A stretch of 64,000 nt of DNA, taken from contig VRMN01000004.1 in the NCBI GenBank assembly GCA_008690995.1, forward strand, positions 1,426,001-1,490,000, read 5' to 3'. This DNA is from Porphyridium purpureum. Taxonomy: Eukaryota; Rhodophyta; Bangiophyceae; Porphyridiales; Porphyridiaceae. Of this stretch, positions 34,577 through 36,564 are shown piece after piece. Under the pieces are notes generated by a model. The model searched no databases, was not told where the DNA came from, and saw only the letters and a program-made list of their open reading frames with translations. Both the position numbers and the translations under genes were made by a program. How positions within the stretch are numbered: position 1 is the stretch's first letter; each line of letters opens with the position of its first letter.

Positions 34577-36139
34577 CTAGGCATCCACGGGCTCTTCCGG
34601 TGCATTCGCGCTCACGATCTCAACTTCAAAAATCAACAGTGCATTTGGCGGGAGCATTTCCCCAAACATGTCCGTCATTCCTTCACACGCTGACGGATGC
34701 ACATAGAGGATCTTCTCCTCTCCCTCCCGCATCCCTACAATACCCGTTTTCAACGCAGCCGGCGCGGAATCAAGTGGAAGCGTCAGAACCTGCACCATGT
34801 TGCTGTCATTCTCTGCAGCGGGGCACGTGAAAAACACGCGCTTATCTAAAAGACGTCCCTGAAGGATCAGCAACACCGTTGCCGTTTCAAGCACCACGGG
34901 CGCGTTTTCATCCAGTTCGTCACTGGGGAAGGATTCGGCGAGCACCTTGCCGGGTTCGAGCACGGTCAAACTGCTCGACTTGGTCTTGAAGAACTCATCG
35001 GCGTCCGCAAGGTCTTGCTCGGCAACCAGTTCTGCAGCGATTTGATGCAGCCCCACCATCTGCTTCTCATATTCAGGATAAGACATGGGGAAGTCCTCGC
35101 CAGCCGCTGCACTTTTCAATCCCTTGACCACAAGGCCCACATCCAAGCCCAGACCCGAGCTCAGCAAGGACTGGCCGAGTGCGTGGCCATATGCCTCTGC
35201 AATCTTGCCCATGTCCGTGCCGGCGGGCGCCACGTCCGCGGCCGTCTTTCGCTTCGTTCCCAGACCTGAGGCTGCGCGCGTGCTTGCTCCTCCTGCTCTT
35301 CTCGCGCCTGCCGATGATACATTCGCACCGCTCTGTTCAAACATGGCCTTTGCCGCCTCCATCGACTCGTGCCACTTGCTCGGGTCGTTTACCACCTTGG
35401 CAAATTCCGGATCTGACTGCAGCCACTGGCTCAGCATGGGATTCTGGCGAATTGCTTCGCGCGACGCCTCCTGCTTTTCCGGATCATTTAGGTATTCTTG
35501 CATCGCTTCGCTGTTCCACAACCCGCTCATCATGTTCGGGAGCTGTGCCATGATGTCGGCAGCGCCGCCAGCGCCGCCAGCGCCTCCATCGGCCTGGTTT
35601 CCGCCGCCCAAGCCGCCGAGCATCTGCATCATCGCGTTCAAATCCATACCTCCCCCAGCCGCTGCTGGATTCGCGCCGGCAGCGCCAGCGGCTCCTGCGC
35701 CACCCATCATCTGCTGCATGAGCGCATTCAAGTCGGGCGCACCCTGCTCGGCACCGCCGCCAAGACCCATCGCATTCAGCTGGGCCATCATATCCGCGAC
35801 GTCTGAGTCGGCGGTCGCGGTGGCCCCTGCGGTCGCGGTGACCGCGCCTCCTGCCGCGGTCGTTGCCGCAGCGGGTGCGGCATCCTTCGCCGCGGCGGTC
35901 GCATTCGCGCCCATTCTGCGCATCACATTAATCGTGGAGCCGTCGGCGACGCCATACTTCTCGAGCGTCTGCGCAGGCTCAAGCTTCTGGCCCTTGAACA
36001 AGAGCATCTGCCGCTCCGCTCCAATCCCGCTCAGCGACGCAATCTGGCCCATGAAGTTCTCCACGGTGTCGCCACCGGACACTCGCAGCTCGTAGCTCTT
36101 CCCATTGAAACACTTCACCTTGACGAAAAAGGGCGCCAT
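34577..36139 (-). CDS. UBL / STI1-like / FKBP fusion protein
   Basis: This 520-residue protein has an unusual domain order. Residues 1-78 form a ubiquitin-like domain (FFVKVKCFNGKSYELRVSGG, then LLFKGQKLEPAQTLEKYGVA). A long Ala/Gly/Met-rich region follows with a ubiquilin-like STI1 segment (EASREAIRQNPMLSQWLQSD). Next is a Mip/FkpA-type dimerisation helix pair (YGHALGQSLLSSGLGLDVGL), and the C-terminus is an FKBP-type fold ending GEMLPPNALLIFEVEIVSAN. Several FKBP active-site residues (the Phe-Asp pair and the binding-pocket Trp) seem to be replaced, so prolyl-isomerase activity is doubtful. It may be a proteasome shuttle or chaperone adaptor. The ATG at 36139 starts the ubiquitin-like domain; upstream frame is low-complexity. 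Confidence 0.88.
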   Translation of the reverse strand: MAPFFVKVKCFNGKSYELRVSGGDTVENFMGQIASLSGIGAERQMLLFKGQKLEPAQTLEKYGVADGSTINVMRRMGANATAAAKDAAPAAATTAAGGAVTATAGATATADSDVADMMAQLNAMGLGGGAEQGAPDLNALMQQMMGGAGAAGAAGANPAAAGGGMDLNAMMQMLGGLGGGNQADGGAGGAGGAADIMAQLPNMMSGLWNSEAMQEYLNDPEKQEASREAIRQNPMLSQWLQSDPEFAKVVNDPSKWHESMEAAKAMFEQSGANVSSAGARRAGGASTRAASGLGTKRKTAADVAPAGTDMGKIAEAYGHALGQSLLSSGLGLDVGLVVKGLKSAAAGEDFPMSYPEYEKQMVGLHQIAAELVAEQDLADADEFFKTKSSSLTVLEPGKVLAESFPSDELDENAPVVLETATVLLILQGRLLDKRVFFTCPAAENDSNMVQVLTLPLDSAPAALKTGIVGMREGEEKILYVHPSACEGMTDMFGEMLPPNALLIFEVEIVSANAPEEPVDA

Positions 36140-36394
36140 CCTGCACCTACCAGCCGACGCACGCACTCGCTCTCCACGCCCCTCGTCTCTCTCCCACCCA
36201 ACGCCACCACACCTTGCTCTCTCGTCTCTTCCCCCGTCTATCTCTTGCCCCCTTCTTCCCCGTCTTAACCCATCCTTCCAGATCTCGCCCGTCCTACTAA
36301 ATTCACTCCCGTTCCTAGACTCCGACCCACAACCAGCCTGCGCACGGCCGCGCACATCGTCGCACCTTTCGCCCACATTAACTATAGAAATAGA

Positions 36395-36409
36395 TATATA
36401 TATTTTAAA
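36395..36409 (+). promoter_or_regulatory. TATA-like AT tract upstream of tRNA-Leu
   Basis: TATATATATTTTAAA is a pure AT stretch in otherwise GC-rich DNA, about 30 bp upstream of the leader helix of the permuted tRNA gene. It could position RNA polymerase III, which cannot rely on the normal A-then-B box order here. Confidence 0.45.
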
Positions 36410-36427
36410 TTCTCGTTCCATTGTCCC

Positions 36428-36435
36428 AATCCAGC
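36428..36435 (+). other. Leader strand of the pre-tRNA splice-site helix
   Basis: AATCCAGC is the exact reverse complement of GCTGGATT at 36550-36557, which follows the 5' half. Pairing of the two would bracket the split anticodon loop as a bulge-helix-bulge-like substrate for tRNA splicing endonuclease. Confidence 0.75.
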
Positions 36436-36441
36436 GAAATG

Positions 36442-36548
36442 CCGCAGTGGGAAACCGCGCGAGTTCGAATCTCGTCACAATCATGCTTGGGACTTCCTCG
36501 AAGACCTTTCGATTGTGTGGCCGAGTGGTCTAAGGCGCTGTGTTAAGG
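36442..36548 (+). tRNA. Circularly permuted tRNA-Leu(AAG) gene
   Basis: The 3' half (36442-36483) lies upstream of the 5' half (36511-36548), separated by 27 nt. The 5' half begins GATTGTG (36511-36517), followed by the D-arm GCC/GGC with loop GAGTGGTCTAA, then anticodon stem CTGTG and loop TTAAGG with anticodon AAG at 36545-36547. The 3' half begins with C38, then CGCAG pairing with CTGTG (one G-U), a long variable arm TGGGAAACCGC with a GG/CC stem, T-arm GCGAG-TTCGAAT-CTCGT, acceptor strand CACAATC and discriminator A at 36483. GATTGTG and CACAATC pair perfectly only in this permuted order. Leader and trailer form an 8-bp helix, and T6 follows at 36559-36564. The three-base-pair D stem, long variable arm and A73 are leucine features. 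CCA is not encoded. The precise join (37/38, or one base either way) is ambiguous because G is present on both sides. Confidence 0.93.
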
Positions 36549-36558
36549 AGCTGGATTC

Positions 36559-36564
36559 TTTTTT
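36559..36564 (+). terminator. RNA polymerase III terminator (T6)
   Basis: Six consecutive T follow the trailer helix strand by one base, 11 nt after the 5' half ends. This is the standard eukaryotic Pol III stop signal. Confidence 0.8.

Follow-up and report, generated by a model that had tools for sequence, protein, structure and literature searches.

A circularly permuted, probably working tRNA-Leu(AAG) gene in the nuclear genome of the red alga Porphyridium purpureum

A 64,000-nucleotide stretch of Porphyridium purpureum DNA (the window, whose positions are used throughout unless a contig or segment is named) carries what we take, with a probability of roughly 0.92, to be a nuclear gene for tRNA-Leu(AAG) that works in circularly permuted form. 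It is one of at least five such genes split at position 37/38, to which a probable one split at 59/60 can be added. Since the halves lie in swapped order, the RNA must presumably be cut, circularized and re-opened to function. The reading draws on the anatomy of the locus, its pairing and covariation, its promoter-like and terminator-like signals, the enzyme genes of the host and partial genome searches in which no conventional copy was found.

All parts of the locus lie on the plus strand. An 18-nt tract made up entirely of A and T, a probable RNA polymerase III (Pol III) promoter element, occupies 36394-36411, that is, 31-48 nt upstream of the 3' half and so within about 50 bp of it. In the leader, AATCCAGC at 36428-36435 pairs perfectly over 8 bp with GCTGGATT of the trailer at 36550-36557. 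The leader ends in GAAATG (36436-36441), which forms part of a 7 x 7 internal loop in the minimum free energy (MFE) fold, and 3' cleavage is expected after 36441. The 3' half, N38 to A73, follows at 36442-36483, then a linker of 27 nt that joins the tRNA ends and contains no T4 run (36484-36510), then the 5' half, N1 to N37, at 36511-36548 with its anticodon AAG at 36545-36547, and, beyond the trailer strand, a T6 run that is a probable Pol III terminator (36559-36564). A73 is followed by TGC, so that CCA is not encoded, as in eukaryotic permuted genes. When the halves are joined, ARAGORN calls a complete 80-nt tRNA-Leu(aag) with a long variable arm and A73, and two covariance models (R1 and R2, below) likewise support both halves. 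The earlier note on this DNA had placed the 3' half before the 5' half and had described a perfect acceptor stem (GATTGTG with CACAATC), a long variable arm with A73, an 8-bp leader/trailer helix, a T6 stop and a TATA-like tract. The order and positions of the halves were correct, the stem is confirmed from the sequence, the variable arm and A73 are borne out by the ARAGORN call, the helix appears in the MFE fold as well, and both signals are where the runs of T and of A/T just described lie. Its overall reading, a permuted tRNA-Leu(AAG) gene, is upheld by the joined halves, by the covariance models and by further genes of like layout.

The locus overlaps an open reading frame of 635 amino acids on the minus strand (34577-36484), which encodes a ubiquitin-like/FKBP-like protein and whose mechanical start at 36484 falls inside the tRNA locus. 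The true start is most likely Met116 (about 36139), just before the ubiquitin domain. Since this start lies outside the locus, we take the tRNA locus to be intergenic.

Run on the unaltered window, neither ARAGORN nor Rfam (at gathering scores) reports a tRNA, as one would expect of a permuted gene. Covariance scoring, which the earlier note had suggested as a check, does find it. Model R2 was built from eight conventional tRNAs of the P. purpureum genome rearranged in silico, with no permuted gene in its training set, and scores the locus at 34.0 bits (E 8.6e-8 over 90 sources and 243 kb, both strands; the E-values of both models are rough). The locus is its sole match in the window up to E 10. 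Its top four matches are four permuted loci, and its best false match, a real tRNA half next to chance sequence, reaches 27.3 bits; the permuted Ser gene, at just 24.3 bits, falls under that false match. Model R1 was trained on ten tRNAs that include three permuted ones, the window locus among them, and it gives this locus, as a member of its own training set, 56.4 bits, with the next match in the window at 12.9. The five permuted 37/38 loci score 64.2, 58.3, 56.4, 52.3 and 46.3 bits with R1, the Cys and Ser genes being outside its training set, against at most 24.9 for all other sequences given to it.

The genome searched comprises 22,164,627 bases in 46 contigs. Ten matches to phycobilisome (PBS) linker proteins mark it as that of a phycobilisome-bearing alga, and over 342 residues one of these proteins shows no difference from chain LR3 of PDB 6kgx, which we take to be the Porphyridium purpureum phycobilisome. 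A UBA2 protein encoded in the window has its nearest named relatives in plants and red algae. A smut fungus, which the GC content of 56% and the scarcity of introns had first suggested, was discarded in view of this protein and of the LR3 identity. BLAST with the Leu(AAG) locus brought up a permuted Leu(CAG) gene (segment L002 1500-1623, contig C45). A permuted Thr(TGT) gene (L017 1443-1536, C14) came from a search with the Rfam tRNA family, and permuted Cys(GCA) and Ser(AGA) genes (L079 140-215, C11; L072 139-260, C1) came from searches with T-arm patterns; all four have their junction at 37/38. The linkers measure 27 nt in Leu(AAG), 44 in Leu(CAG), 22 in Thr, 4 in Cys and 29 in Ser. Ser(AGA) has extra D-loop bases, probably an intron, and its joined form is miscalled as Pro by ARAGORN. 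The Rfam family search, with 63 of 475 candidates scored, gave at least 17 matches; among its results we found by eye a Lys(TTT) gene on the minus strand of segment L014 (contig C2) that is probably permuted at 59/60. Its T-stem is perfect, its acceptor stem is paired over 7 positions with three wobbles, and ARAGORN calls the joined form Lys.

The number of permuted genes, five at 37/38 and the probable Lys, is a lower bound. Six tRNA-arm patterns gave 6, 7, 31, 102, 39 and 30 matches against 8, 23, 38, 69, 60 and 27 in a reversed control. Since patterns alone show little or no enrichment, a match was accepted as a tRNA solely on its surroundings. Eight of the 31 matches of one pattern (control 38) read as tRNA genes, one of them (L042) without an assigned type; for the two patterns with 39 and 30 matches, the 29 of 69 that have a fitting 51-63 pair and were not already known were examined. 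Judged by eye, introns in the D-loop or D-arm are apparent in Leu(TAA) (L069), Ser(AGA) (L072), Ser(GCT) (L074), His(GTG) (L080), Pro(CGG) (L086), Ser(TGA) (L091) and perhaps Val(TAC) (L016), and T-loop introns near 59/60 are apparent in Met(CAT) and Arg(TCG) genes in segments L012 and L015.

The five 37/38 genes can be compared pair by pair. In their alignment 95.2% of the cells are paired, and changes on both sides are seen in 16 of 21 pairs; none of 500 shuffles comes up to the real alignment on any of the five measures used. The two stems that join the halves have changes on both sides in 5/5 and 5/7 of their pairs, and pairing falls to 26-48% when partners are slid by 1-3 columns. Because the alignment follows a fit to the model and the five genes encode different types of tRNA, this covariation speaks for tRNA structure in each gene and not for the descent of one gene. 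Between the exons of Leu(AAG) and Leu(CAG), 69 of 80 bases are identical, and nine of the 11 differences are found in the acceptor stem, which forms across the swap and stays paired despite them: four pairs are altered on both sides and one changes from G-C to G-U. The other two differences are in the anticodon and at N38. From their sequences, these two permuted genes look like paralogues.

The junction between the halves resembles that of an ordinary intron of this alga. The MFE fold of the linear Leu(AAG) precursor contains the 8-bp leader/trailer helix, the 7 x 7 internal loop and an acceptor hairpin over the linker; the D-arm is absent from it, and no strict bulge-helix-bulge is seen at the junction. 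In a register test on this gene, a Watson-Crick helix of 8 bp starting at most 3 nt from the junction arose in 0.04% of 5000 shuffles. Shuffles scored by leader/trailer duplex energy were weak (P 0.0095-0.85, below 0.05 only for Thr among the five genes, 0.086 for Leu(AAG)). When leaders and trailers of 25 nt each are reassigned among the five genes, own pairs have the best total energy, rank 1 of 120 assignments. In 4/5 permuted 37/38 genes the longest Watson-Crick helix begins 1 nt past N37 and ends 5-7 nt before N38, a register picked after the genes had been inspected. The Cys gene is the exception, with no leader/trailer helix in this register, and its leader may pair with the anticodon loop instead.

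Six conventional 37/38 introns, with borders set by eye, were compared with these junctions. The helix lies 1 nt after N37 and 6 nt before N38 in Ala(AGC) and Ser(CGA), and at 0 and 5 in Arg(TCT) and Ser(GCT), which is the same frame shifted by one pair; in Ser(TGA) it is off the common register, at 2 and 9, and the 15-nt intron of Leu(TAA) has no clear junction helix. Over all 11 genes the score for the fixed register, picked after inspection, is 116 as against 39.4 (SD 11.7) with swapped partners, and none of 20,000 swaps scored as high. In the A-I pair, a pyrimidine at N32 pairs with a purine at -3 before N38. N32 is a pyrimidine in 11/11 genes and the base at -3 a purine in 9/11 (4/5 of the permuted ones); in Leu(AAG), the A at -3 in the leader could pair with U32 by this rule. 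A-I pairs are named in PMC3978253. The earlier note had supposed that the 7 x 7 loop might define a special, relaxed substrate. This was not borne out: 2/6 cis introns at 37/38 have the same helix register and another 2/6 a register shifted by one pair, so that the loop is much like an ordinary intron junction of P. purpureum. Such a geometry would be expected for a eukaryotic Sen complex rather than for the strict bulge-helix-bulge of archaea.

The earlier note had asked whether a normal tRNA-Leu(AAG) gene exists elsewhere. Partial genome searches with the joined query and with D-arm and T-arm patterns found none. The joined 80-nt query, run against the genome DNA up to E 10, returned solely the two permuted Leu loci; this search is blind to diverged copies, and Leu(CAA) was missed by it. 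When up to 3 mismatches are allowed, the Leu D-arm has one match on the window's contig and six in the genome, and the only exact ones are at the two permuted Leu loci. Of the remaining four, which carry 2-3 mismatches, none looks like a Leu(AAG) or Leu(CAG) gene, the one in L029 being less clear. There, at about position 1500 on the minus strand (C45:291797-291815), the A-box-like stretch TGGCCGAGAGGTTTAAGGC stands without a clear surrounding tRNA and is perhaps a relic. A T-arm pattern of 17 bases, allowed up to 3 mismatches, gave 102 matches (control 69), and of the 100 listed, 14 keep the stem and the loop core. Seven of these 14 listed matches belong to tRNA genes, namely both permuted Leu genes, Ser(AGA), Ser(GCT), Ser(CGA), SeC and Pro; the other seven have no tRNA features, nor do two more with a changed loop. 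The check covered these 14 and two matches; 21 with the stem only and 63 others were set aside. On the eight stretches examined last, R1 gave at most 14.6 bits. A conventional AAG gene whose D-arm and T-arm are very different or split by introns may have escaped this partial census. Since these partial searches turned up no conventional Leu(AAG) or Leu(CAG) gene, the permuted locus is probably the alga's sole supply of an essential tRNA. Eight open reading frames of the window use CTT and CTC together 33 times per 1000 codons, which implies that an AAG tRNA is needed; CTG stands at 27 per 1000.

Three other accounts of the locus have been weighed. A tandem duplicate of an intron-bearing tRNA-Leu might have lost its outer halves and lie unused, with a conventional gene elsewhere supplying the tRNA. 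One origin proposed for permuted genes is indeed a tandem duplication whose outer exons are then lost (PMC3978253), and the census of the genome is incomplete. A dead remnant would nevertheless have had to keep its acceptor, anticodon and T stems intact, an acceptor stem that covaries with that of the Leu(CAG) paralogue, and promoter-like and terminator-like signals in place; moreover, the arrangement is common to five genes and the partial searches found no conventional copy. We therefore consider this account very unlikely.

It is still harder to believe that each half joins a partner made elsewhere, as in the split, trans-spliced tRNAs known in archaea (PMC3218864). The acceptor stem formed by the two adjacent halves is perfect, and so is their leader/trailer helix of 8 bp; Leu(CAG), the one other locus that the joined query brought up, has a different acceptor stem; and the unit is framed by one promoter-like tract and one T run. 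An artefact of assembly or rearrangement, by which a normal gene came to have its halves exchanged, is barely credible: long-read hybrid assemblies can contain errors, yet the same layout recurs at five 37/38 loci on four contigs with differing linkers, leaders and trailers, and a swapped normal gene would not gain a TATA-like tract, a matching leader/trailer helix and a T6 run. Nor does the locus have the order of a conventional intron-containing gene, in which the 5' exon lies upstream of the 3' exon.

With a permuted gene as the preferred reading, its signals and the enzymes of the host outline how it may be expressed. A tract with at least 13 A/T in 14 positions lies within 75 nt upstream of 6/6 permuted tRNA genes and of 13/18 conventional-order ones that were compared, whereas among the 75-nt stretches of the window 0.6% contain one; the comparison leaves out Ser(GCT) and Ser(TGA), which have too little upstream DNA, as well as Val, L019 and L083, and the tract of Arg(TCT) is unusually far up (-73). 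The position of the tract upstream of the 3' half in permuted genes suggests that the whole is transcribed as a single unit, 3' half first, and the Leu(AAG) locus has the form of one, with the A/T tract at its 5' side, T6 at its 3' side and a linker free of T4. The genome encodes splicing endonuclease subunits and a ligase: two PF01974 matches have Sen2 and Sen34 as their best structural matches, and RtcB has two matches (C3:263918-265243 and C1:1357653-1358798). These ligase matches are separate from each other, and one may be organellar or acquired.

By analogy with Cyanidioschyzon, we infer a circle pathway of the kind described in PMC3978253, and the transcription of the locus, each processing step and its essential role are to be read in this conditional sense. 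RNA polymerase III would start downstream of the TATA tract and stop at T6, giving an RNA with leader, 3' half, linker, 5' half and trailer in that order. Leader and trailer would pair and give the join a form close to that of an ordinary intron junction at 37/38, where the Sen2/Sen34 endonuclease could cut after N37 and before N38. A ligase, for which RtcB is present, would then join N37 to N38 into a circle, and RNase P and tRNase Z would take the linker off the acceptor end, after which CCA would be added.

Permuted tRNA genes are known from several lineages. PMC3978253 tabulates 34 from six algae and one archaeon, with no Leu(AAG) among them. Cyanidioschyzon merolae has a permuted Leu(CAG) of type II (37/38) and a permuted Lys(TTT) of type IV (59/60) (Soma et al. 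2007, 2013, via PMC3978253). Its type II genes share with the present locus the order of the halves, the 37/38 junction, an upstream TATA-like tract, a downstream T run, a linker without signals and the lack of an encoded CCA, and the 27-nt linker of Porphyridium is within the published range of 1-74 (PMC3978253). Both algae have a permuted Leu(CAG) at 37/38 and, probably in the case of Porphyridium, a permuted Lys(TTT) at 59/60. Unlike C. merolae, Porphyridium is a mesophilic red alga of another class, with a permuted Leu(AAG) gene, an anticodon absent from the PMC3978253 table, and a junction helix in a register common to several of its ordinary introns.

Prasinophyte green algae and the Bigelowiella nucleomorph (Maruyama et al. 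2010, via PMC3978253) also have mostly 37/38 junctions, with Cys(GCA) and Ser isoacceptors among their permuted genes as Cys(GCA) and Ser(AGA) are in Porphyridium; they differ in belonging to the green lineage and in having almost no atypical introns, whereas Porphyridium appears to have D-loop and T-loop introns (PMC3978253). In Auxenochlorella, a green alga reported later than PMC3978253, permuted genes were found after tRNAscan-SE had given an incomplete set (PMC12633428). The archaeon Thermofilum pendens has the same order of halves and differs in its 59/60 junction and encoded CCA (PMC3218864, PMC3978253). Searches for permuted tRNA in Porphyridium, Galdieria and Rhodophyta gave no report for mesophilic red algae in those parts of the literature that were covered, although an absence in print is not proven by this. 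The statement in the earlier note that no report was known for this lineage thus holds for the literature so covered, with the qualification that Porphyridium belongs to the same phylum, Rhodophyta, as Cyanidioschyzon, and only the class differs: the kind of gene is known, the host is new.

The literature searched had connected permuted tRNA genes with one extremophile red alga, with green algae, with a nucleomorph and with a single archaeon. The Porphyridium genes also show that genes of this kind can escape standard tRNA finders. At least five of them in a cultured and sequenced red alga make the question of ancestral or convergent origin testable within the red algae, and they provide natural substrates for studying how Sen2/Sen34 deals with a split junction as compared with an intron junction whose geometry is nearly equal. 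Tentatively, and against what we consider the better odds, permuted tRNA genes may be ancestral in red algae, the Leu(CAG) at 37/38 of Cyanidioschyzon and Porphyridium, and the Lys(TTT) at 59/60 of Cyanidioschyzon with its probable counterpart in Porphyridium, having come down from genes that were already permuted in their common ancestor. If this is true, essential sense codons would have been read ever since by tRNAs made through circles.
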